Shown: piece after piece, positions 7,049 through 42,069 of the stretch
How the letters are laid out: every line of letters begins with the position of its first letter
Position numbering within the stretch: the stretch's first letter is position 1
DNA from: Deltaproteobacteria bacterium
Lineage (GTDB): Bacteria > Desulfobacterota > Binatia > UBA1149 > JAJCZL01
Direction: 5' to 3'
Assembly (NCBI GenBank): GCA_029262415.1
Contig: JAJCZL010000022.1
Coordinates: forward strand, 1-64,000
DNA: 64,000 nucleotides
Notes under the pieces: generated by a model
What the model was told of the DNA's origin: nothing
The model's database searches: none
The model's input: the letters and a program-made list of their open reading frames with translations, nothing else
Translations under genes and position numbers: made by a program

Positions 7049-8464
7049 TCAGAACTGGAAGTAAATAAACGGCTGGTAGCCGGTTTTTATCCAAGGTAGC
7101 ACCAAGCCGACGACAGCGCCGAACGCCGGTGCGAACAAGAGCGCCGGGACGCGCTCGGCTATCTCCGGTAGGGACGCGCGTGAAGTTACTACGTGTACCG
7201 ATGTAAATCCGGCTAACACTCCCCACCACCAGAGGTTCAGCGCTGGTTTGCCGAGTGCTTCGGGGAATGTTGCTGCCTGGCGTGCGGCGTCGCCGTCGAC
7301 TCCGATCAAACCGATGATGAAATGGAAAGCCGCCTGTATATCGGGTGAGCGGAAGATCACGAAGCCGATAACGACGACCAGCACGACGTAGACGTGGCGA
7401 AGCACGCGGGGGGCACGCGCGATCGGGACGAAACGTTCGGCAACTAGGAACGCTCCGTGGAACAATCCCCACAGGACGAACGTCCACGCGGCTCCGTGCC
7501 ACAGCCCGCACAAGAAGAACACCGCCAGCAAGTTGAACGTTGTACGCGCCCGTCCCGAACGGTTGCCACCGAGCGGAATGTAGAGATAGTCGCGGAACCA
7601 CGTTGATAGCGAAATGTGCCAGCGCCGCCAGAACTCGCGCATCGAGTCGGCCAGGTATGGAAAGGTGAAGTTCTCGGGCAATCGAAAACCGAGCAGGCCG
7701 GCGCTGGCGATCGCCATGTCGGAGTAGCCCGAGAAGTCGCAGTAGATTTGCAAGCTGTAAAGCGATGCGGCCAGCCACTTGCTTGCCGCTCCGAAGAGGT
7801 CGGGATCTGAGAACACGGCATCGACAGCCACGGCGGCGTGGTCGGCGAGGCAGGATTTCTTGATAAATCCGACCAGGAAGAGCGTTAAGCAGGCGCGCAC
7901 GCGCACGTCGCGCCACGGCCGCGCCGCGCTGAGTTGGGGTAGGAAGTTGATTGCACGAACGATCGGGCCGGCTACGAGCTGAGGGAAGAAGCACACGAAC
8001 AACGCGAAGTCGACGGGAGAGTCAGTCGGAGCGAGCTTGTCTCGGTACACGTCGATCGTGTAGCTGAGTGTCTGGAATGTGTAGAAGCTGATGCCCAGGG
8101 GTAAGATTAGGTCGAGTGCAGTCGTTGAGACCGGCAGTCCGAGCCAATTGCTGAAGGCGACGGCGGAGTCGGCGAAGAAGTCGAAGTACTTGAATACGGC
8201 TAGGATCCCGAGGTTAACGGTTAGGCTGGTCCATAATAGCACACGGCGAGTCGCCGGAGTTCGGGTCGGCATCGCTGCGGCTACCAAGAAATCGACGGCG
8301 GTCGAGAGTAGAACCAGTGAAAGGAAACGCCAATCCCACGCTGCGTAAAACGAGTAGCTCGCGGCCAGCAGCCAAAGTTTGCGTGGCCGGTTACTGCGTA
8401 GCGTCCAGTAAACCCCAAGGACAACCGCGAAAAATACCGCGAACCTGAACTCTGTAAACAGCAT
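7049..8464 (-). CDS. MBOAT-family membrane O-acyltransferase (AlgI-like)
   Basis: A 471-residue polytopic membrane protein of the MBOAT/AlgI type, which moves an acyl group across the inner membrane onto an extracytoplasmic acceptor such as a polysaccharide. Diagnostic blocks are LPLGISFYTFQTLSYTIDVYR (split here as LPLGISFYTFQ and YTIDVYR), FCGYSDMAIA-like DFSGYSDMAIA, MREFWRRWHISLSTWFRDYLY-type sequence and the catalytic His in LWHGAAWTFVLWG. About ten hydrophobic segments are visible. It begins one base after the SGNH gene ends, the usual pairing of an MBOAT with a periplasmic SGNH partner, and is last in a six-gene operon. Confidence 0.92.
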   Translation of the reverse strand: MLFTEFRFAVFFAVVLGVYWTLRSNRPRKLWLLAASYSFYAAWDWRFLSLVLLSTAVDFLVAAAMPTRTPATRRVLLWTSLTVNLGILAVFKYFDFFADSAVAFSNWLGLPVSTTALDLILPLGISFYTFQTLSYTIDVYRDKLAPTDSPVDFALFVCFFPQLVAGPIVRAINFLPQLSAARPWRDVRVRACLTLFLVGFIKKSCLADHAAVAVDAVFSDPDLFGAASKWLAASLYSLQIYCDFSGYSDMAIASAGLLGFRLPENFTFPYLADSMREFWRRWHISLSTWFRDYLYIPLGGNRSGRARTTFNLLAVFFLCGLWHGAAWTFVLWGLFHGAFLVAERFVPIARAPRVLRHVYVVLVVVIGFVIFRSPDIQAAFHFIIGLIGVDGDAARQAATFPEALGKPALNLWWWGVLAGFTSVHVVTSRASLPEIAERVPALLFAPAFGAVVGLVLPWIKTGYQPFIYFQF

Positions 8465-8465
8465 C

Positions 8466-9527
8466 TCAGAGGTTCTTAACTGTTTCGGCCAGCCGCGCGG
8501 CGAACGCTTCGCTGAAGACTTGCGCGCCTTCGTGGTTGAAATGGTGTGGATCGAAGCGCAACTCAGCGTCGAACAAGCGCGGGGCGGTGCGCGGATCGCT
8601 TAAGTTGATTAGCGTGAAACCTGAGTTGTCCGTGGACAACCACTCCGTGAGCTTATTACGCTCGAGCGTCGGCATGCCGACAAGCACCAGCTCGATGTCG
8701 TGTTCCGCCGCGCGCCGTTTGGCGCTGTCAAGTAGTTCGTAGAGGTAGGAGTCGCGGACGTTTGTGTGGATGTTTGTTGGGGCCTGGCTCCAATCCTCGA
8801 GCTTGCGCCGATACGCAGCTCGGCCGCCGGAATTGTCGGCGAAGCGCTGCCGACGCTCGATGAACTCGGTGTCGGTCTCTGCGTCCAGCGATGCGTAGCC
8901 GCGTGCAACTAAGAACTCCCGCTTCTGTGAAACCAGGGTTTCGGTTCGCGCACCAAGAATAGCCTGCCAGAGCTGCGGCCCAAGTCCGATGCTGCCGTGC
9001 CGACGCACGGCCTGTCGAACGTGATTGGCCGCAACGGTTAGGCGTTCGTGTAACGATGGCATTGTGCGCCAGTTCTGGTGACGTAGCAGTGCGAGCGTCT
9101 GGCGCGGCGCATAGGCGAACACGGCGCGTTGGTTGTCGCCGAGTTGCTCGTGTGCGAACGGAGAGAACCAAGCTGGGACCTGGACTACGATCCATCGTAG
9201 GCGTGCGGGCTGCTGGGCGAGGACACGGTCGAGCAGTGCGTCGGTCTCCTGCGTGAACATCCCGGCCATCCCGAGATTAAACGAGCGAAACTCTTGGCCC
9301 GTTGCTTGTGACAGGAACGGGTCGATGACGTCGGGGCGGAACGAACGGTAGACGAGGCTGCTTCCGAGATAAACCGCAGTGTAGTCCCCGGCTGTCTCTT
9401 CGAAGGCCTCAAACTTTGCGCGTAGGCCGTACTCTTCGGAGAGCGGGACAAAGGGGCGCTGCAGTCCAGCGCTGGCCGTGTAACCCGCGAGTGCAAGTAC
9501 AAGACCCGCGGCGATACGCGGGGTCAT
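8466..9527 (-). CDS. SGNH/GDSL-like periplasmic protein, MBOAT partner
   Basis: A 353-residue protein with an N-terminal signal or anchor (AAGLVLALAGYTASA). It has SGNH-hydrolase features: a YLGSSLVYRSF block near residue 55 that carries the nucleophile Ser, a FNLGMAGM block near residue 84, and a C-terminal DPHHFNHEGAQVF block that supplies the Asp/His pair. Proteins of this kind (AlgJ/AlgX, DltD, PatB) finish acyl transfer onto a polymer outside the inner membrane after an MBOAT delivers the acyl group. Its start overlaps the crotonase stop codon (ATGA), implying translational coupling. Confidence 0.75.
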   Translation of the reverse strand: MTPRIAAGLVLALAGYTASAGLQRPFVPLSEEYGLRAKFEAFEETAGDYTAVYLGSSLVYRSFRPDVIDPFLSQATGQEFRSFNLGMAGMFTQETDALLDRVLAQQPARLRWIVVQVPAWFSPFAHEQLGDNQRAVFAYAPRQTLALLRHQNWRTMPSLHERLTVAANHVRQAVRRHGSIGLGPQLWQAILGARTETLVSQKREFLVARGYASLDAETDTEFIERRQRFADNSGGRAAYRRKLEDWSQAPTNIHTNVRDSYLYELLDSAKRRAAEHDIELVLVGMPTLERNKLTEWLSTDNSGFTLINLSDPRTAPRLFDAELRFDPHHFNHEGAQVFSEAFAARLAETVKNL

Positions 9528-10321
9528 TTCCCCTTGAATTCCGGATCACGACGTTCGACGAAAGAGCGTACGCCTTCGGCTGCGTCCTCAGATCTGCCGA
9601 GCACCGCCTGTGTTTCGCCGAACTCGGCGCGGCACGCCGCTTCACCGTCTTCAGCGTAAATCCGCGCCGATCGTTTGGTTGCTTGGATCGCCAGCGGCGC
9701 CAGTTTGGAGATCTTGTTGGCGAGCTCGACGGCGCGGTCCAATTGGGTTCCCGCAGCGACGATCTCCTGAACATGGCCGATCCGGTAAGCTTCTTGTGCG
9801 TTCCATTCATCGGCGATCAGCAGGTGGTACATCCCGTTGCCCCAGCCGCCGCGTTCGATGAATCGAAACGTTGCCCCGCCCGTAGCCATGATTCCACGCT
9901 TGGGTTCGAGCTGGGAAAAACGGCAATCGTCTGCGGCTACGACGATGTCGGCGGCGAGCATGAGTTCGATTCCTATGGTGTAGGTAATGCCTTGAACCGC
10001 GGCGACGATCGGCTTACGGCACTTGCGACCGAGCGAAGTCGGATCGACGTGGCCACCGCGGCCAAGTGGGCCGCCTTCCTTGATCCGCTGTTGCCATTTG
10101 GGAAGGTCGAGACCGGCAGTGAAATGCGGTCCGTGACCGAACAGGACGCCGACCCGCAGCTTGTTGTCTTCGTCGAGGGCGGTATAGGCGTCGGCCAACG
10201 CATCGTACATTGCGGGGGTAAACCCGTTGTATTTCTCGGTGCGGTCGATGCCGATGAGCATTGTGTGATCGCGGATCTCGGTTGTTATACGCCCGTTGGG
10301 GTTGCGAAAGGTTTGGCTCAT
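9524..10321 (-). CDS. Enoyl-CoA hydratase/isomerase family protein (crotonase fold)
   Basis: A 265-residue cytoplasmic crotonase. The two oxyanion-hole segments are visible (GPHFTAGLDL near residue 68 and GITYTIGIEL near residue 116), and the LEPKRGIMATGGATF block near residue 143 covers the usual catalytic Glu region. The C-terminal RSFVERRDPEFKG is typical of the family. It acts on an acyl-CoA; hydratase, isomerase or hydrolase activity cannot be distinguished. ATGA overlaps on both sides place it firmly between the Fe-S/SCP2 protein and the SGNH protein. Confidence 0.88.
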   Translation of the reverse strand: MSQTFRNPNGRITTEIRDHTMLIGIDRTEKYNGFTPAMYDALADAYTALDEDNKLRVGVLFGHGPHFTAGLDLPKWQQRIKEGGPLGRGGHVDPTSLGRKCRKPIVAAVQGITYTIGIELMLAADIVVAADDCRFSQLEPKRGIMATGGATFRFIERGGWGNGMYHLLIADEWNAQEAYRIGHVQEIVAAGTQLDRAVELANKISKLAPLAIQATKRSARIYAEDGEAACRAEFGETQAVLGRSEDAAEGVRSFVERRDPEFKGK

Positions 10322-11994
10322 CCTCGCAGACTAGCGGCCGACCAGCGTCTTTTCCACCAGCGCCGTGCGTGCCAGCGGGCTTTTGCCATGAGGCCGTCGG
10401 GCGGCCTGACGGGGAAGATTCGTGGAAAAGCGAGGAACAACTGTTTCTGACCGGACAGCCGAATCCGGCCGCTTAACAACGCGGCGACGGGATCGATCTC
10501 GCCTCGGTGTAAGCCGAGAAATACGGCGCCGTTGCAGCGGACTGTCAGATCGGGCAAGGCCGGGGCCGCGACCGTTCCCGGCCGCACGCTGCACCGGCGG
10601 TCGGCAACGCGTAGCACCCAGGCCCCGCCACCCTCGCCGGTGAACTCAAATTGGCACGAGAAGTCGAGCCCTGCTGCGTCGGTTGGACGGAAGTAGAACT
10701 GCATCATGCGCATCATCGTATCGATGTTGGAGACGCGGATCCTTTGTAGCTGCACCAGACGGATGGTCCGGCCTTGCCCGGGACGGTTCGGGTCGGGGGC
10801 GGTGCGGAACTTGCCCGGCGCGATATCGTAAAACTCGCGGGCCGAAGGAGTGTCGATGACGAAGCGCTGCTCTACGCTTTTACGTGTATAGGTCAACGGC
10901 TTGAGCGTCTCATCCATATACGACCGGCGCGCGGTCTTGTCGTCGTGGAAAGCGTCGTGGATTTCAGCAGGACAGGTCGCGACGCAGTTGAAGCAGCGAT
11001 ACTCGACACGAAACGCAAGCGACTGCCAGAGTGCGGCTATTTCTGCATCGCTCCATCGGTGCTCAAACCGACGTGGTTTGGCCTCGGCTAGGTCACGTGC
11101 GAAGTCGAGAAAACCGGGGATCGAATCGCGATAGGTGTGGTTATAGCAGGCGAAAAAATCGAACTCGCCGTCAGCCTTAATCGCTTCGGTAGGGCACGAG
11201 GCGACGCAGAGATTGCATTCCAAGCAAGGGTTCCACTCCATAGACGCGACCGCGGCGTATTCTGCCTCGGCGAATTCCAGGTTTGTCACTACAGTATCGA
11301 TCAGACAGTAGGCACCGAACGTTTTGTGTAGCAGGTTGCGGCTGGTGCCGATGACCCCTAGGCCCGCTGCCTGGGCCGCGAGTTTGTGACTGAGCGGCCA
11401 GATCTTGTCCGGCCAGCGTTGTGAGACCTCCTGCGGCCATCCGATCGTGGTGGTGAGTGCTTCGCCGCCGAGGGAGCGGATGTAGCCGGTGACCTCGTGT
11501 CCCCACTTGAAGAGACGTTCTTCGCACGCGTACAGCTCGTGGTTGGCAGTAGGCAGATACCGCGATTGCAGCGAGGGTTTGTTCTCTTCTCCGATCATCA
11601 CCACGAGCGATCTTGCGTGCGGGTAGACGTAGCGGATTTCGTCGGCCTCGTGCGCGATGGCGGGATGGTCGATCGAGATCACGCCGACGTCATCGGCGAT
11701 CTGCGCTACCCGCTCTTTGAACTCGGCCATGCTCACCCGTGATCGCACCCAACGTGGTTCGATCTTGACCGGGTCGTACGCATCGATATCCACGAAGGGT
11801 TGGCGGCGTTCGCTGTTAGCCGGGATCGCTTTCTTGCCCTGCCAGCGGCCCGGGGTGGCGAAAGGAAAGTCCCAGTCTGCGCTGGTGTTGCGCCGGCCGT
11901 TCGGTGTGGCGGGGCCGATCTCGTTCTCGTCGGCAATCGCGTTCCGCTGATGGGTTGGCTGTTGCTCCAGCCGGAGGGGCTTGGTGGTTGCCAT
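10318..11994 (-). CDS. Reductive-dehalogenase-like Fe-S protein fused to SCP2 lipid-carrier domain
   Basis: A 558-residue two-part protein. The N-terminal 380 residues resemble the QueG/reductive-dehalogenase superfamily: a YPHARSLVVMIG block, AAQAAGLGVIGTSRNLLHKTFGAYC, and two Cys clusters, CLECNLCVASCP near residue 261 and CFNCVATCP near residue 350, suited to two 4Fe-4S centres. About residues 420-540 form an SCP2 sterol/lipid-carrier fold (LPDLTVRCNG, LSGRIRLSGQKQLFLAFPRIFP). No twin-arginine signal is seen, so it is probably cytoplasmic. The family reduces a substrate with or without a cobamide; here the SCP2 part suggests a lipophilic one. It sits between the cytochrome c and crotonase genes. 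Confidence 0.78.
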   Translation of the reverse strand: MATTKPLRLEQQPTHQRNAIADENEIGPATPNGRRNTSADWDFPFATPGRWQGKKAIPANSERRQPFVDIDAYDPVKIEPRWVRSRVSMAEFKERVAQIADDVGVISIDHPAIAHEADEIRYVYPHARSLVVMIGEENKPSLQSRYLPTANHELYACEERLFKWGHEVTGYIRSLGGEALTTTIGWPQEVSQRWPDKIWPLSHKLAAQAAGLGVIGTSRNLLHKTFGAYCLIDTVVTNLEFAEAEYAAVASMEWNPCLECNLCVASCPTEAIKADGEFDFFACYNHTYRDSIPGFLDFARDLAEAKPRRFEHRWSDAEIAALWQSLAFRVEYRCFNCVATCPAEIHDAFHDDKTARRSYMDETLKPLTYTRKSVEQRFVIDTPSAREFYDIAPGKFRTAPDPNRPGQGRTIRLVQLQRIRVSNIDTMMRMMQFYFRPTDAAGLDFSCQFEFTGEGGGAWVLRVADRRCSVRPGTVAAPALPDLTVRCNGAVFLGLHRGEIDPVAALLSGRIRLSGQKQLFLAFPRIFPVRPPDGLMAKARWHARRWWKRRWSAASLRG

Positions 11995-12006: not shown

Positions 12007-14142
12007 TCATTCGGAACCGATTCGGTATTCGCCCGAGTAGCCGAGCCAGAATGAGTCGCCGGTCATGTCGTCGTTGTCAGGCGGTGCGGGCGGAGGAATC
12101 TTAGAAAAGGCCGCGGGGATACTGCGTAGATAGAACACCAGCGCCTCCAGGTCCTCGCTCTTGAGCCGTGAGAAGTGATCCCAAGGCATTGCTTGCCAAT
12201 GCATCGTTCGACCGTCGCGCGAGAGTCCTGTGGTAACCGCACGTTTGATCTCTGCGTCGCTCCAAGCGCCGATGCCGGTCTCCGTGTCAGGTGTGATGTT
12301 GCGCGAGTAAGTTGTCCCGTAAACTTCCCAGTTAGCCTTCATGCCCCCGCCTAGTTCGGGGAACGGCGACCACAAGCGTATCCACGACGGTCCGGCCGTG
12401 TGACACAGCGAACACGTGCCCGTGGTCGCAACTTCACGACCTCGCCGTGCGAGTGCTTCAAGCCCGGGGTCGCGGCTATCCAATGGCGGTGGCGGCTGAC
12501 GCAGCGGCGGCAGGTTCAGTGCTGTTGCCGCAGGTCCGTATAGGCCCTCGCCGAGGAGAAGCCCGGTCGGCATCCACATCAAGAACGGCCAGTTGTAGAC
12601 TGCTGTTGCCGTGAACATCGCCGCGATCCAGACGCCGACGGCAATACGCCGCGGAGGCGGGGTGGGGCGCCGTCGTCCGGGGCGCCCGAGCCTGAGCCCG
12701 AGAAGCGCAGCCGAGGCGAGCATTGAGGCGGCAAGTAGCAACAGACCTGTGGTCGGGTTGTGCACATTACGTCGCGCCGCCGTCGGAGTGTTTGCGATGT
12801 CGACGCCGTCTGCGCTCAACGCACTACCAGCGTTGCCGGGGTGGAACCGAAAGAACGCGCCTTCGTGTGAACCGGTGATCAGGGCCCTGCCTTTTTCGAT
12901 TACTCCTTCGACGAGCCCCGGCGCTCGAGGTGCGGGGATCTGGTTGTCGACTGGTTCAAGAGCCGAGAAGTAAGCGTACAAGGCATCGGCATCGCTATCC
13001 GCTAGCCCCGTGAGAATCGTCCATGGCATATCGAGCGGGTTCAGGCGCCTACCGTCCTTCGCGCGGCCGCGTTTGATCGCGCGACGGAAGTCCGAGGCGA
13101 ACCAGCCGCCGATACCCGTGGCGGGTTCAGACGTCAGGTTGCGCGAGTACTGCGTGCCGATGTATTTAATCCGCACACGCATTCCACCGGCTCCGAAGCT
13201 CGCCGAACTGTAGGACCCATCGGGCTGCATCTGGACGTGGCAGAGAAAGCAGGTGCCGCTCTTTGCTAGATACTCGCCGTAGTCTCTAGGCTCTTGGTCG
13301 AGGCCGTGCGGTCGCAGCGCCGCAGCGATCGCCGCCTCGCGGAGCGAAGGAGCCGCGGCGAGTGAGCGGACGTAGTAGGCCAGAGCCCACAACTCCTCCA
13401 TACGCGCGGATCGCGCGTAGCCGCGCATCGGCGTTCCGGAAATTCCGGCGGCGAGCCTCATCACGATATCTTCTGCCTCGCTGCCTCCTCGGAACCCCCA
13501 GGGACGGGTGAGGTCGGTTGCGACTGCGACGCTGCCGTCATCGTTGGTGAGATGCGGTGGGGTAAAGCTCGCGGGGGCAAACATGAATGCGGGTACACCT
13601 GTGTGTTCGCCGATCGCAGAATCAACCAGCGCTCCAGTTCCGTCGAGCCCGTGGCAGCGTTGACAGCCGAGGGCGCTATAGATTCGACGCCCGGATTCTA
13701 ACACTCGCGCGTCGGGTGTAGGTGGTTCGCCGATGGTGAGAGCTATAGGAGCGGTGGTTGGCTTCAGGTGGAAGCCACGTAATGTGGTGATTGCTTCTTC
13801 GATCTGTGCGTCACTGAGAATTCCCGCGAAAGCCGGCATCGCTGTTTCCGCTAGCCCGTTGCGAATCGTGCGCCGGAGATCGGCATCAGAGGCGGAAGTT
13901 TCCTCTGTCGTGGTTCGGTATCTGAATACCCCGGTGGTGAAGTCGCGTGGTGCGCGGTCGTTGAACCGTAAGGTAGCTGCTGCAGGTCCGTTGCCACTAC
14001 CGTCGGTTCCATGGCAACGCTCGCACCAGCGCTCGTAGGTAGCGTTCTCGCTACGGGGTTGCGCCGCTAGCGTCGGTGATGCGGCGATCCCGATCGCGAC
14101 AGTAAGCACGCCGACAACTGCCGCTGTTATGCGATCATCCAC
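12007..14142 (-). CDS. Membrane-associated tetraheme cytochrome c
   Basis: A roughly 711-residue exported cytochrome with four CXXCH haem sites: CERCH (about residue 40) and CQRCH (about 155), each followed by GxDGxG as in class I cytochromes, then CFLCH in the middle and CSLCH in the last third, both near YSRNxTxxxxTGIGxW blocks. Two membrane spans lie between the third and fourth haems. The frame is open to 14325, but a GTG at 14142 starts a clean signal peptide (ITAAVVGVLTVAIG, cleavage after LAA) and overlaps the TetR end by only 16 bp. It could carry electrons to or from the periplasmic face for the operon's redox step; that role is inferred. Confidence 0.85.
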   Translation of the reverse strand: MDDRITAAVVGVLTVAIGIAASPTLAAQPRSENATYERWCERCHGTDGSGNGPAAATLRFNDRAPRDFTTGVFRYRTTTEETSASDADLRRTIRNGLAETAMPAFAGILSDAQIEEAITTLRGFHLKPTTAPIALTIGEPPTPDARVLESGRRIYSALGCQRCHGLDGTGALVDSAIGEHTGVPAFMFAPASFTPPHLTNDDGSVAVATDLTRPWGFRGGSEAEDIVMRLAAGISGTPMRGYARSARMEELWALAYYVRSLAAAPSLREAAIAAALRPHGLDQEPRDYGEYLAKSGTCFLCHVQMQPDGSYSSASFGAGGMRVRIKYIGTQYSRNLTSEPATGIGGWFASDFRRAIKRGRAKDGRRLNPLDMPWTILTGLADSDADALYAYFSALEPVDNQIPAPRAPGLVEGVIEKGRALITGSHEGAFFRFHPGNAGSALSADGVDIANTPTAARRNVHNPTTGLLLLAASMLASAALLGLRLGRPGRRRPTPPPRRIAVGVWIAAMFTATAVYNWPFLMWMPTGLLLGEGLYGPAATALNLPPLRQPPPPLDSRDPGLEALARRGREVATTGTCSLCHTAGPSWIRLWSPFPELGGGMKANWEVYGTTYSRNITPDTETGIGAWSDAEIKRAVTTGLSRDGRTMHWQAMPWDHFSRLKSEDLEALVFYLRSIPAAFSKIPPPAPPDNDDMTGDSFWLGYSGEYRIGSE

Positions 14143-14795
14143 GCTCGTGTCGCCTCGAGCAGAGCCTCGAGGACTTCCGCTTCGCGCCCCTCGGCTGTTG
14201 CGCTCGAGTGGCCGGAAACAACCGTGGCCGTCAAACCATGAACGTGCATCCACACCACATTGGCCACGATTGTTGCGTCGCTCCCGGGGCGCAACGTGCC
14301 GGTCTCGATAGCTTCCTGGGCGCACTGTTTCACGATGTCGAGAGAGAACGCCTCTTCTCTGACTGCCGCTGTTAACGCGGTTGCGGCGAGGTCGACAGGG
14401 AACATGAGACGGAAGTAGTCGCGATTCTCGGTTCCGAACAAGTAGTAGCGCCGCTGCATTTCGATGAGCCGCTCGACCGGGGCCAGACTCGCTGGGGCTT
14501 CGGCCAGCGCGCGCGCGAGCTTAGCATGACCCTCCATGCGCAGGTGGTGAAGCACGTCGCCGATGCCGTCGTAGTGCAGGTATATGGCCGTGGCGCTGCA
14601 GCCCAGGCGTACTGCGATCTTGCGAGCGGATATGCCCGCGACCCCGCCTTCGAAGTACAACGCGCGGGCGGCTTCGAGAACGCGTTGTTTCAGCGCCGGT
14701 GCAGGCTGTTTCCGAGGTTTGCGTGAATCGACAGATGATAAACGATTTGTTAACACCGTTAACCGACGATAGGGCGGCGTCACCCCCCCAGTCAA
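14127..14795 (-). CDS. TetR-family regulator with WHG domain
   Basis: A TetR repressor with an N-terminal helix-turn-helix (KIAVRLGCSATAIYLHYDGIGDVLHHL) and the C-terminal WHG-type domain (VWMHVHGLTATV). It heads the six-gene operon and is probably its ligand-responsive switch. The longest frame starts at TTG 14795, but TTGACT at the same place with TATCGT 18 bp on looks like a promoter, so translation may begin further in, for example at the GTG near 14756; no good ribosome site decides it. The gene's end overlaps the cytochrome start. Confidence 0.82.
   Translation of the reverse strand: MTGGVTPPYRRLTVLTNRLSSVDSRKPRKQPAPALKQRVLEAARALYFEGGVAGISARKIAVRLGCSATAIYLHYDGIGDVLHHLRMEGHAKLARALAEAPASLAPVERLIEMQRRYYLFGTENRDYFRLMFPVDLAATALTAAVREEAFSLDIVKQCAQEAIETGTLRPGSDATIVANVVWMHVHGLTATVVSGHSSATAEGREAEVLEALLEATRAWMIA
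14749..14763. promoter_or_regulatory. Candidate operator, paired GTTAAC sites
   Basis: GTTAACACCGTTAAC contains two 6-bp palindromes 3 bp apart, at the upstream end of the TetR gene and just downstream of a possible TTGACT-18-TATCGT promoter on the minus strand. The position suits autoregulation. Nearby, 14781-14802 contains CACCCCC and GGGGGTG facing each other. Confidence 0.35.
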
Positions 14796-35033: not shown

Positions 35034-35189
35034 CCAAGAAACAGAGTATAAGCAAACCCCGGTATCTCGGGTATCCGAAGATGCGGGGAGGTGTCGCGAG
35101 GGGTTGTTTCAGTAGCCAAAACTGGTGTAGGTATGGCGGGTATAAGATCACCCTGGGTTCTGACTGGGGGAGTGGAGGATTCGAGAAAC

Positions 35190-36473
35190 ATGACCAGGCA
35201 ACTCACCGTATATCTGAGCGTCGCCCTCGCTCTCGCAGTCGCGTCCGTAGTGCCGTCGGCATCGGCCGACGTGGCGCCGGGCGATATAATCACCGGCTCG
35301 AACATCGAAAAAATCAAGGATCTCTCGTCGCCCGGTTTGATGTGGATCATCAAGAACGGCGTGACGATGAAGATCGTCGCACCGAAGAAGATCGCGCTTC
35401 CGCCGCCTTACCTGCAAGCCACCGAGCAGTACTCCGGGCAAGTAAAGCTGGCCGCAGATGGTCAGAGCATCGAAAACTGGGTGGCAGGTGCGCCGTTCCC
35501 CACTGTCGATGCCAACGACCCCGAAGTCGCCCGAAAGGTTATGTACAACTACCAGGCGCGATGGGGCGAGACCGACGACCTGGATCTCAGCAACTTCGAC
35601 GCCGATACCGGTACGATCGGTCGCGACGGTGACGGTATGACCGTCGAGCGTCACTTCCTGATCGACCACTTCAAGCGCATGTACTTCAAAGGCCGCATGT
35701 TCTTGGATCCGAAACCGGCCTACGCTCCGAACCAGGACGAGGTCTACTACAAGGAATCCCTCCACCCGATCATCGAACCCTTCGATTTGAAGGGCACGGG
35801 GCTGAGCTACTACCGTTATCTCGACCACAACCGCCACGACGACAGCTGGCTGTATCTCCCGCAGCTGCGCCGCGTTCGTCGTTTGTCCTCGGCGCAGCGT
35901 TCCGACGCACTGTTCGGTCAGGACACCGACGTCGACAGTTACGGCGGCTATGCCGGCAACATCGCCTGGATGGATTGGAAGTTCCTTGGCAGTAAGACCA
36001 TCGTTGCGTCGATGCACGCGGAGAACTTCCCGGTCGTTTGGGGTGAGAAGAGCGGCGACTTCATGTACACCGACACCTGGGAAAAGCGTGAGGTCTGGGT
36101 CGTAGAAGGCTTCTCCAAGCTTCCCCAGTACGCATACTCAAAGCGCGTAATCTTCGTGGATAAAGAAGCGTGGGTGATCCCCTACAGTGACATCTACGAT
36201 CAGGCCGGCCAGCTCTGGAAGGTTTGGGTGAACCTCTACAAGATCGCCAAGTCTCCATTCGATGGAGCACCGGCTGACGGCACCTTCGAATGGGAGATGC
36301 CTTTTCTCCCGGCCATCTGCATGGTGGATATCCAACTGCAGCATGCCACCCGCGCCGCACTGCCCAGTTCGCAGTTCCCAGGCGAAGTCGGCTGGCGCTT
36401 TAACAAAGGTGAAGCTAGCGGCACGAACGAAGAGTTTTTCTCGATCTCGCACTTGATCTCCTCGGGCCGCTAG
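35190..36473 (+). CDS. DUF1329 family outer-membrane-associated protein
   Basis: A 427-residue exported protein of the DUF1329 family (related to the LolA/LolB lipoprotein-carrier fold). The ATG at 35190 (GGAGG about 11 bp upstream) starts a signal peptide ending SASA. Family blocks are PGDIITGSNIEKIKDLSSPGL, DDSWLYLPQLRRVRRLSSAQRSD-type sequence and WEKREVWVVEG. Members occur in Pseudomonas and deltaproteobacteria near RND exporters or hydrophobic-compound catabolism and are thought to move lipophilic ligands in the periplasm. Here no RND gene is adjacent; the divergent neighbour is a copper protein. Confidence 0.88.
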   Translation: MTRQLTVYLSVALALAVASVVPSASADVAPGDIITGSNIEKIKDLSSPGLMWIIKNGVTMKIVAPKKIALPPPYLQATEQYSGQVKLAADGQSIENWVAGAPFPTVDANDPEVARKVMYNYQARWGETDDLDLSNFDADTGTIGRDGDGMTVERHFLIDHFKRMYFKGRMFLDPKPAYAPNQDEVYYKESLHPIIEPFDLKGTGLSYYRYLDHNRHDDSWLYLPQLRRVRRLSSAQRSDALFGQDTDVDSYGGYAGNIAWMDWKFLGSKTIVASMHAENFPVVWGEKSGDFMYTDTWEKREVWVVEGFSKLPQYAYSKRVIFVDKEAWVIPYSDIYDQAGQLWKVWVNLYKIAKSPFDGAPADGTFEWEMPFLPAICMVDIQLQHATRAALPSSQFPGEVGWRFNKGEASGTNEEFFSISHLISSGR

Positions 36474-39534: not shown

Positions 39535-40587
39535 CTACTGACAAGCCGGGCACGAGAAGGCGCTACCGAGGATGCCGACCGCCACACGAAGGATGCGCAG
39601 TGCATCTACCGCGGTAACGGTACCGACTCCGTCAACGTCGCAGACGCAGGTGGCGCACTCGACTGTGCCGACGGATGCGCGCAGGGCGAAGAGTGCGTCT
39701 ACCGCTGTGAGCAGGGTATTGGCATCGGCGTCGCCGCAGGTGACCAGCTTACAAAGCGGTGAACACCCGCTGCCCACTGCAGCGGTGCCCGCATCGCATT
39801 CTTCACCGAAGTCTAAGCTCCCGTCTCCACAAACCGCTTTTGCCATTGTTGTCGTCGTCGAGGATGTGCTGGTGGTAGATGTCGTTGTCGTCGTCTCTGA
39901 GCCTTCGCAGGGGTTCACTGCAGCGATTGCATCCAGGTCGAAGCCCCCGCTGGTGCCGGGTGGCACGCGGTTACCCGGGTCTTCGATAGATGCGCCTGGA
40001 TCAACGATGCGGATGTAGAGTGCTTCGGCGATGCCGATGTCGCGCAAGTCGAAGGGATCACCGCCGGAAACGGAAGGATCGGTCGGATCGATACCGTTGT
40101 CGGGATGGCTGAATACCGGGGCACGCCCCGCGAGACCTTCGAGCGTGTCCGGGTCGTAGGGGAACTCGAAGAAATCCACACCGTTTGAGCTTACCGATAC
40201 GATTCCGACCTCGGCGAAGATCGGGCCTTGCGCTGAACCTGCATGGAAAGCGTTCTCGAACACGGTGAAGTCGGGACCGGGACCGTCGCATATCGGTTCG
40301 TCGAACACCAAGACGATGCTTCCATCGTTGCCGAGCGCGAGCACGTCGAGCGAGCCGAATGTCTCGCCGCCTCCGCGCGGAGGTCCGAGAACAACCCCGG
40401 GTAGGCCCTGCGCCCCGAATCCCGCACTGGTTCCAGGCGTGAACGCGATGACTTGGTCTACGAATGGGTCGGAGACTTGGCCATGGGCCGCGCTGGAGAC
40501 CAACCCTATCGAGGTTACGGCGGCCAGCGCCCCAACCGCCGCCCGGGCGGCGGCCCGAGCGGTACTCAGAACGGCGCCGCAGTGCAT
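39535..40587 (-). CDS. Secreted surface protein with Thr-rich linker and dockerin-like tail
   Basis: A 350-residue exported protein, second in a cobalamin-riboswitch operon. The ATG at 40587 starts a signal peptide ending AHG. Residues about 40-210 form a domain with FDEPICDGPGPDFTVFENAF, FAEVGIVSVSSNGVDFFEF and GGDPFDLRDIGI, a family I recall from surface proteins near B12-uptake genes. A TTTTTSTTSTSSTTTT linker follows, then a Cys-rich CGDGSLDFGEECDAG element and two dockerin-like EF-hand repeats (DADANTLLTAVDALFALRASVG, in parts, and DVDGVGTVTAVDALRILRVAVG). The frame runs on upstream only as a shadow of the next gene. A surface binding role is inferred. Confidence 0.78.
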   Translation of the reverse strand: MHCGAVLSTARAAARAAVGALAAVTSIGLVSSAAHGQVSDPFVDQVIAFTPGTSAGFGAQGLPGVVLGPPRGGGETFGSLDVLALGNDGSIVLVFDEPICDGPGPDFTVFENAFHAGSAQGPIFAEVGIVSVSSNGVDFFEFPYDPDTLEGLAGRAPVFSHPDNGIDPTDPSVSGGDPFDLRDIGIAEALYIRIVDPGASIEDPGNRVPPGTSGGFDLDAIAAVNPCEGSETTTTTSTTSTSSTTTTMAKAVCGDGSLDFGEECDAGTAAVGSGCSPLCKLVTCGDADANTLLTAVDALFALRASVGTVECATCVCDVDGVGTVTAVDALRILRVAVGILGSAFSCPACQ

Positions 40588-41990
40588 ACCAGCTTTACGG
40601 TGTCGTCGTCCTTGGCACCCGCTGCGGTCTCGGTCTTGACCTGGACCCGACCTTTGCCGTCCTTGAGGGTGCCGGAACCCCTTCTCTTGAGCGGCACAAC
40701 GAGCCCGTCGCTGAAGAAGCAGGCGCTTCCCGAGACTGGCAGCGCGGCGGAAACCGACACTGCGGTGTCTTGCAGCCCAAGCGACGCCGGCTTGGTTTTT
40801 ATCCGGAACGATGTGATCGAACCGGCTGCGTCGCAAAGCGGGAAGGCTGCGTCTTCGACGTTCAGACAAAAACCCACCGGGAATGTGCAACGGTTGTTGA
40901 CGACACCGTCGGCGTCGCAGGCGGCACCGTCGGTGCACAGTGCTTCCTTACCGCTGAGCTCGAGTCCGTAGAACTCGTGAAAGCATTCGGTCTTAGCCGA
41001 ACCCTTGCCGGGCAGTAACCGATCTTTGCGCACAAACTTGTGAATCGACTTCTCTTCGCTGTCGGCAAGCCCCGTTGAAGAGAGCATCTCAACGCGTCCT
41101 GTAAACCCGTCAACTGTCACGCCGGTCGCGAAGCTGAGGCCGGAGACGAAGGGGTTCGACGTCCCGCTCATGTCGACAGCGACAACGTCGCCGCCGAATA
41201 CGCCGGTGGCGATCAGGTTGCCCTCAGCGTCGAGCGCGAGGTCGAAGCTGCCGATTCCAAAGCTCGGTCCGGCAAAGGGCGTGGGCGCGACCGGTGCGCC
41301 GGCCGCATCGAACCGTGAAATTTGATTTTCGAAGCTGGAATTCAGGAGCTCAGCGACGAAGAAGTTACCGCCGCTATCGACGGCGATCCCGCCGGTAAAA
41401 TCGAGTCCGGTCACCAGTGTTGACGACGAAGTCCCCGGACCGATCTCGATGACCGTTCCTGCACCGCTGCCCGCGGCATCGCCGACGAGCAGGCTTCCCG
41501 TAGAACTGAGCGCGACCGAAGCGGCTCCGCCGATCGAGTCTGCGGGCAGTAACTCGACGGCCGGTGCGAGCAGTCCACTTGCCGTCGATGCCGTGGGTAT
41601 CGCAAAAACGGTGTCGCCGGTTTGCGCTCCGGTGTTGCTGAAGCTGCCCGCGGTCAAGCCGAGATCGTCGTTGTCGGCGTTGTCGGTGACGTAGAGAGTG
41701 TCGGTTGCCGCGTCGTACGCACAGTCGCCGATCGAATTGAAGCCGGAAACCACCAGGCGAAACTCGCCGGACTCTTTAGCCAGTACGACCGATTGGGCGT
41801 TGGCGGTAAATCCTGGACCTATTCCGACGAAGGTTCCGCCGGGACCGGCTGCAACGCAGCCTTGGGCGGGTGCGTTGAGGGGCTGGGGTGCGTAGATGTA
41901 GCCCGCGGGTACGGTGACTTGCGCACCTGCGGGCGCGACGAAAACCACGACAATACATGTCGCGGCTGCGGCCTTGATTGAGAGATTCAT
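40566..41990 (-). CDS. Secreted beta-propeller protein under cobalamin riboswitch
   Basis: A 474-residue exported protein. The ATG at 41990 follows AAGGAG and starts a signal peptide ending PAGA. Residues about 30-330 contain repeated blades of the NHL/SMP-30 type, for example DCAYDAATDTLYVTDN, SVALSSTGSLLVGDA, GIAVDSGGNFFVAEL and DLALDAEGNLIATGVFGG. The C-terminal 140 residues are Cys-containing (six or more Cys) and unassigned. Its messenger begins with a cobalamin riboswitch. By analogy with BtuG, the B12-binding propeller of Bacteroides, it may capture cobalamin, but sequence relation to BtuG was not tested. It overlaps the next gene by 22 bp. Confidence 0.8.
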   Translation of the reverse strand: MNLSIKAAAATCIVVVFVAPAGAQVTVPAGYIYAPQPLNAPAQGCVAAGPGGTFVGIGPGFTANAQSVVLAKESGEFRLVVSGFNSIGDCAYDAATDTLYVTDNADNDDLGLTAGSFSNTGAQTGDTVFAIPTASTASGLLAPAVELLPADSIGGAASVALSSTGSLLVGDAAGSGAGTVIEIGPGTSSSTLVTGLDFTGGIAVDSGGNFFVAELLNSSFENQISRFDAAGAPVAPTPFAGPSFGIGSFDLALDAEGNLIATGVFGGDVVAVDMSGTSNPFVSGLSFATGVTVDGFTGRVEMLSSTGLADSEEKSIHKFVRKDRLLPGKGSAKTECFHEFYGLELSGKEALCTDGAACDADGVVNNRCTFPVGFCLNVEDAAFPLCDAAGSITSFRIKTKPASLGLQDTAVSVSAALPVSGSACFFSDGLVVPLKRRGSGTLKDGKGRVQVKTETAAGAKDDDTVKLVCTAAPF

Positions 41991-41993
41991 GAG

Positions 41994-42069
41994 TGCTCCT
42001 TGCACAGATCGTCTTGACGGTCCGACCTCACCCGGGCGGCCCGTGAAAGTTCAGTTCGGTGCAGGAGCA
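41994..42069 (-). promoter_or_regulatory. SD-sequestering helix (riboswitch expression platform)
   Basis: On the minus strand TGCTCCTGCAC (42069-42059) can pair with GTGCAAGGAGCA (42005-41994), one base bulged. This would bury the AAGGAG ribosome site of the ATG at 41990, giving translational control downstream of the aptamer. Confidence 0.65.

Follow-up and report, generated by a model that had tools for sequence, protein, structure and literature searches.

Genes at the locus

The window, that is, the whole stretch of DNA that was analysed (64,000 nucleotides), contains the open reading frame that an earlier note had read as a reductase-like iron-sulfur module fused to an SCP2 lipid-carrier domain. 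The frame exists as described there and encodes a protein of 558 amino acids, referred to here as P0001. Table 1 lists its parts and the other features of the window.

Table 1. Features of the window, with their positions and the evidence for each.
Feature	Position	Strand	Evidence or remark
ALIL pseudoknot RF01497	3216-3332	(+)	87.2 bits; presumably the frameshift element of IS3-type elements
MBOAT acyltransferase gene beside an ORF that looks SGNH-like by eye	7049-9527	(-)	second ORF without Pfam match
Crotonase/enoyl-CoA hydratase family gene	9524..10321	(-)	PF00378 136.8 bits; NF005126 331 bits (cut-off 261)
Fe-S/SCP2 fusion protein P0001, 558 aa	10318..11994	(-)	ORF listing and Pfam
SCP2 domain, residues 421-528	10411..10734	(-)	PF02036 over cut-off; fold Z 10-16
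Residue 526 (Ile in P0001)	10417..10419	(-)	equivalent in sub2 is Cys in 78/79
Motif 2, CFNCVATCP (C334, C337, C341)	10972..10995	(-)	C334 is the counterpart of QueG Cys236
QueG/reductive-dehalogenase-like corrinoid-type domain and ferredoxin part, residues 84-335	10990..11745	(-)	hhalign, predicted model
C283, fifth cluster cysteine	11146..11148	(-)	invariant in 117/117 family proteins
Motif 1, CLECNLCVASCP (C257, C260, C263, C267)	11194..11226	(-)	invariant in 117/117 family proteins
Conserved DWxFPFxxPG stretch of sub1, residues 41-49 (W41-G49)	11848-11874	(-)	orthologue alignment; low model confidence
Cytochrome c-type protein, four CxxCH	12007..14325	(-)	12 bases upstream of the fusion gene
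TetR-family regulator	14127..14795	(-)	TTG start listed, start unsettled; overlaps cytochrome ORF as listed
DUF1329 protein	35091-36473	(+)	about 23 kb from the fusion gene
Cobalamin riboswitch RF00174	42147-42333	(-)	98.2 bits; before ORF 40566-42005 (-)

A two-cluster reductase part joined to an SCP2 domain

In the Pfam search, PF02036 (SCP2) matched residues 446-527 of P0001 with 28.8 bits against a gathering score of 21.3 (E 1.7e-6), Fer4_16 matched residues 257-286 barely above its cut-off, and residues 80-235 had no match. QueG_DUF1730, which is found in the QueG of the same genome, was absent from the Pfam list of P0001 at E up to 1, and no Pfam dehalogenase model was listed at that threshold. 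Of the curated NCBIfam models, TIGR00276 (QueG) gave 47.3 bits for the N-terminal part against a cut-off of 200 (E 1.4e-12), and TIGR02486 (reductive dehalogenase) gave 22.2 bits for P0001 against a cut-off of 160.35 (E 1.1e-4). That P0001 is QueG itself was therefore rejected, since it falls below the curated cut-off and a separate QueG lies elsewhere in the same genome.

Comparison of profiles placed the reductase part among these enzymes in fold. With hhalign, residues 89-348 matched 15 QueG proteins of the same class at a probability of 98.7 (E 1.9e-16), and a profile of 74 family members searched against the PDB found QueG (5d6s, E 1.4e-10) and a PceA-type dehalogenase (8q4h, E 3.7e-7). 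The AlphaFold model of P0001 (mean pLDDT 72.9, pTM 0.60) matched QueG 5d6s with Z 13.6 (rmsd 5.1, 196 residues) and PceA/NpRdhA with Z 11-12, and its residues 421-528 matched SCP2-type domains with Z up to 16.1 (rmsd 1.7, 104 residues). The SCP2 matches, at Z 10-16, include the C-terminal domains of alkylsulfatases, MFE-2 (1ikt) and UbiJ-SCP2 (Z 10.5). A second model, of the Methylococcus protein from subgroup sub2 (see below), matched QueG with Z 15.0 (rmsd 3.1, 156 residues), NpRdhA with Z up to 14.4, SCP2-type domains with Z up to 15.2, and the B12 chaperones MMACHC/CblD with Z about 10.5; the best matches of its N-terminal part are B12 enzymes and B12 chaperones. The two models give domain folds rather than the placement of SCP2 relative to the remaining protein, and the ferredoxin part is of low confidence in both (pLDDT below 50 at residues 259-267 of P0001).

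Orthologues of P0001 at 60-70% identity are collinear with it across the reductase and SCP2 parts, which excludes a chance read-through. No export signal was seen in P0001 by eye, and the protein is presumably located in the cytoplasm. Taken together, profiles and predicted structure confirmed that P0001 has a QueG/reductive-dehalogenase fold, two [4Fe-4S] sites and a true SCP2 domain, and the fold and the lipid-carrier domain proposed in the earlier note both hold; the delivery of a hydrophobic substrate to a redox centre that it also proposed is putative. The protein shares with QueG the corrinoid-type domain followed by a two-cluster ferredoxin part, and differs in having SCP2 where QueG has a HEAT-like C-terminal domain. 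It differs from known SCP2 proteins, including the SCP2 tails of alkylsulfatases, MFE-2 and UbiJ, in joining the SCP2 fold to a two-cluster reductase.

Distribution of the family

The fusion proteins fall into two subgroups, sub1, to which the window gene belongs, and sub2. Across 84,980 species genomes, at least 367 relatives were detected among at least 594 candidate stretches. Of the 80 relatives kept from these, 5 are sub1 loci, all from metagenome-assembled genomes named Deltaproteobacteria; the other 75 are sub2 loci and belong to Planctomycetota, Pseudomonadota, Nitrospirota, Acidobacteriota, Cyanobacteriota, Actinomycetota, Bacillota, Bacteroidota, Verrucomicrobiota, Chloroflexota and several candidate phyla. 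Thus, among the matches listed, sub1 is small and confined to related uncultured bacteria, and sub2 spans more than ten phyla. Cultured carriers of the family include Methylococcus capsulatus, Methylosinus, Streptomyces and Peribacillus.

A protein search found a sub1-type match in 14 of 98 genomes (G000 included), in G024 and G042 as two pieces. Within the phylum of the window, 32 of 297 genomes matched the family profile with E no higher than 1e-30; sub1 occurs there in the window's class only (G000, G003, G019). The phylum also has sub2 copies, close relatives that lack SCP2 (L142-L150), which end near the expected start of that domain and keep the eighth cysteine in 9/9, and more distant relatives of about 265 aa. 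The window's own genome has the P0001 gene and a single sub2 copy, at 33% identity, which lies together with a MarR gene on a 3.2-kb contig of similar G+C. It also encodes an SCP2 protein standing alone and a genuine QueG (L004). On plasmids, 5 of 72,556 records match the family, three of them with the fusion, publicly labelled only as 'SCP2 sterol-binding domain-containing protein'.

The earlier note knew of no characterised enzyme with this combination, and would count as refuted if the two parts proved common and annotated as a known one. We found no treatment of the reductase-SCP2 combination in the open-licence PMC papers searched, and the passages of PMC11819568 and PMC9323977 that name the 'SCP2 sterol-binding domain' are gene lists with nothing on this family. 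The fusion is nevertheless widespread, under an annotation that gives a domain name and no known enzyme. This is a widespread, uncharacterised reductase-SCP2 family, neither QueG nor reductive dehalogenase by curated models. The note contained neither this spread, nor the division into sub1 and sub2, nor the relocated cysteine described below.

Genomic context of sub1 and sub2

The crotonase gene and the fusion gene share the bases ATGA, in which the ATG of the former overlaps the TGA of the latter. When 17 loci (one of them the sub2 copy) were searched by tblastn, no crotonase homologue was found beside any other sub1 gene, so the crotonase pairing is at best a local arrangement, and the four-haem cytochrome had a homologue beside an orthologue only at L111. 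Because these neighbours are not conserved, an operon logic built on them was dropped as a firm claim. A TetR homologue lies near the sub1 gene in the window and at L028, L104, L107, L109, L110, L111, L113 and L116 (partial), and a DUF1329 homologue at L106, L108, L109 (cut), L111, L112 and L116.

Around sub2 genes the regulator is of another family. Function-blind clustering of neighbours first brought out a set of MarR genes, which lie within 600 bases of the fusion gene in 49/76 sub2 loci (at least 700 bases of upstream sequence being available in 70/76), in nearly every case upstream and in the same orientation, and on the 3' side at L063 and L064. The solved structure closest to these MarR proteins is 4fx0/4fx4 (E 4.9e-23), which we take to be MosR. 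Passages of PMC5823404 describe MosR and OhrR as acting via a cysteine in helix alpha-1, with a Cys10-Cys12 pair as the MosR switch. The alpha-1 column is Cys in 41/41 aligned MarR proteins, and a narrow pattern for the CxC pair found it in 10 of the 49 adjacent proteins. MarR genes with the CxC pair also stand at the SCP2-less loci L142, L147 and L149, with a fragment of one at L148, so the regulator tracks the reductase, not SCP2. The likeness to MosR and OhrR thus covers regulators linked to sub2 and to some SCP2-less relatives, whereas the window gene has TetR instead. The known target of OhrR is Ohr. The MosR target described in passages of PMC5823404 is a secreted oxidoreductase, unlike the reductase-SCP2 family. 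These MosR/OhrR-like MarR genes suggest that sub2 may serve in responding to lipophilic compounds that are oxidised or reactive.

At four sub2 loci (L029, L043, L087, L091) the proteins are 809-856 aa long and carry a long C-terminal extension, which in the two scanned with Pfam (L029 and L091) contains FAD_binding_6, NAD_binding_1 and Fer2. For self-sufficient catabolic RdhAs, passages of PMC10463259 describe a PDOR domain of this type at the C-terminus; in the sub2 proteins SCP2 precedes the reductase module.

Cluster cysteines and the division into sub1 and sub2

According to passages of PMC4646009, the cluster beside cobalamin in QueG is held by Cys194, Cys210, Cys236 and Cys239, and the distal cluster by Cys184, Cys187, Cys190 and Cys243. 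P0001 has eight cysteines in the QueG order (4+1+3), as do sub1 and the SCP2-less relatives generally. The earlier note had picked out the two motifs correctly and missed the eighth cysteine, C283, which stands between them. By sequence order, C334 of P0001 corresponds to QueG Cys236, a ligand of the corrinoid-adjacent cluster.

The protein sets differ between analyses (70 in the tree, 74 in the profile alignment, 117 in the census), and the pattern described here was first noticed on 74 proteins and then counted on 117. The census, which left out duplicate contigs and fragments (L014, L017, L025, L026, L028, L140, L141), the more distant L018, and one further profile match (G207:C34), covers 14 sub1, 79 sub2 and 24 SCP2-less proteins. 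Seven of the cysteines are invariant over all 117, and all eight over the 14 sub1 proteins. Position 334 is Cys in 14/14 sub1 and 24/24 SCP2-less proteins and in 0/79 sub2 proteins, which have Ala (72) or Ser (7). At the C-terminal end of SCP2, 78/79 sub2 proteins and 0/14 sub1 proteins have Cys at position 526; this near-invariant residue sets the sub2 domain apart from known SCP2 proteins. The lone sub2 exception at 526, Streptomyces L097, has no Cys at either position. Three sub2 proteins (L137, L138, L139) have an additional Cys three residues ahead of position 334.

On a tree of 70 proteins built with the columns around 334 removed, C334 is lost once, so the cysteine swap counts as one event kept across a wide clade and not as repeated evidence. 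This tree gives little resolution to the branching order among sub1, sub2 and the SCP2-less group, so that one fusion with later losses and two separate fusions are indistinguishable. It is conceivable, though in our view rather unlikely, that in sub2 the SCP2 cysteine serves as the fourth ligand of the corrinoid-adjacent [4Fe-4S] cluster in place of the lost ferredoxin cysteine; the enzyme would then become ready for electron transfer in the very step in which the loaded carrier docks. The window gene would represent the other arrangement, with all eight ligands within the reductase part.

Cobalamin supply

None of the seven family loci scanned has a cobalamin riboswitch. The riboswitch in the window stands before an ORF for a 479-aa secreted-looking protein with no apparent B12 link. 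CobS had no match in the window's own genome nor in 23/40 genomes carrying family members, and these genomes thus give no sign of assembling cobalamin themselves and would need to import it. PF02310, the B12-binding domain, was found in all 24 (the own genome and the 23 carriers without CobS), and CobS, being absent from these same genomes, was set aside as a non-discriminating marker of B12 supply. The PF02310 proteins and the riboswitch of the window speak for a corrinoid-dependent reading, the missing CobS matches and the riboswitch-free family loci against it. As passages of PMC4646009 put it, class III cobalamin enzymes have no corrinoid-binding sequence motif; P0001 may instead use a flavin, or no extra cofactor.

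Proposed function and alternatives

We lean towards P0001 being a reductase for a hydrophobic electrophile held by SCP2, probably dependent on a corrinoid; we infer the cofactor, the substrate and the SCP2 ligand. The protein would be built as class III cobalamin enzymes are, with a nitroreductase-type corrinoid-binding domain and a two-[4Fe-4S] ferredoxin part, followed by SCP2. The SCP2 domain would hold a lipophilic substrate. The distal cluster would take up electrons and hand them to the one beside the corrinoid, for reduction of an electrophilic group (e.g. a C-O, C-halogen or peroxide bond) on the molecule that SCP2 presents. In sub2 the donor could be the fused NAD(P)H-flavin-[2Fe-2S] module, and for the window gene it would have to be a separate protein. 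The bound corrinoid, the electron route and the lipid substrate are all putative. The linked MarR genes and the NAD(P)H module of sub2 would suit an enzyme that protects against oxidative stress by reducing lipophilic electrophiles or peroxides, and we regard this role as tentative at most. For the window gene, whose sub1 relatives have TetR and DUF1329 neighbours, our best guess is the same chemistry on some hydrophobic compound.

An unlikely alternative is that B12 has been lost from the nitroreductase-type domain, leaving a flavin or pure Fe-S reductase or an electron carrier that serves an SCP2-bound lipid quinone (cf. UbiJ). UbiJ-SCP2 is indeed among the structural matches, many carriers have no CobS, and the catalytic residues of QueG and RdhA are unmatched: the catalytic Tyr common to both has no clear counterpart in the family alignments, and the QueG active-site Asp-Tyr-His and Asp are unmatched in the profile alignment, in each case over a poorly aligned stretch. 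Yet the cluster arrangement and the corrinoid-type domain have been kept together, and the N-terminal part of the sub2 model resembles B12 proteins best.

It is less likely still that the family consists of divergent reductive dehalogenases for hydrophobic organohalides collected by SCP2. The fold shared with PceA/NpRdhA (Z 11-14 over both models), the eight cysteines, and the catabolic-RdhA-type module in four relatives agree with this idea, but the dehalogenase models fail as described above, the catalytic Tyr has no clear counterpart in the poorly aligned stretch, sub2 is spread over many phyla, and its regulators resemble oxidation sensors. We know of no organohalide habit common to these phyla.

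SCP2 fusions with beta-oxidation enzymes are known, MFE-2 (1ikt) among them, and the crotonase overlapping the fusion gene scores 215 bits on the EchA19 model (cut-off 400), but a steroid or fatty acyl-CoA breakdown enzyme partnered with this crotonase is very unlikely, as tblastn found no such neighbour beside the other sub1 genes.

We return to the corrinoid-type reductase as the preferred reading. Passages of PMC4646009 suggest that further B12/[4Fe-4S] enzyme families may exist that cannot be found by motif. The reductase-SCP2 family, widespread and present in cultured organisms, is a candidate for such a family, in which the SCP2 domain points to hydrophobic substrates and the regulators point to oxidative or electrophile stress. 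If the SCP2 cysteine of sub2 is truly a cluster ligand, it would represent a new coupling of lipid delivery to a metal centre. The family offers a direct test of what further class III chemistry does.
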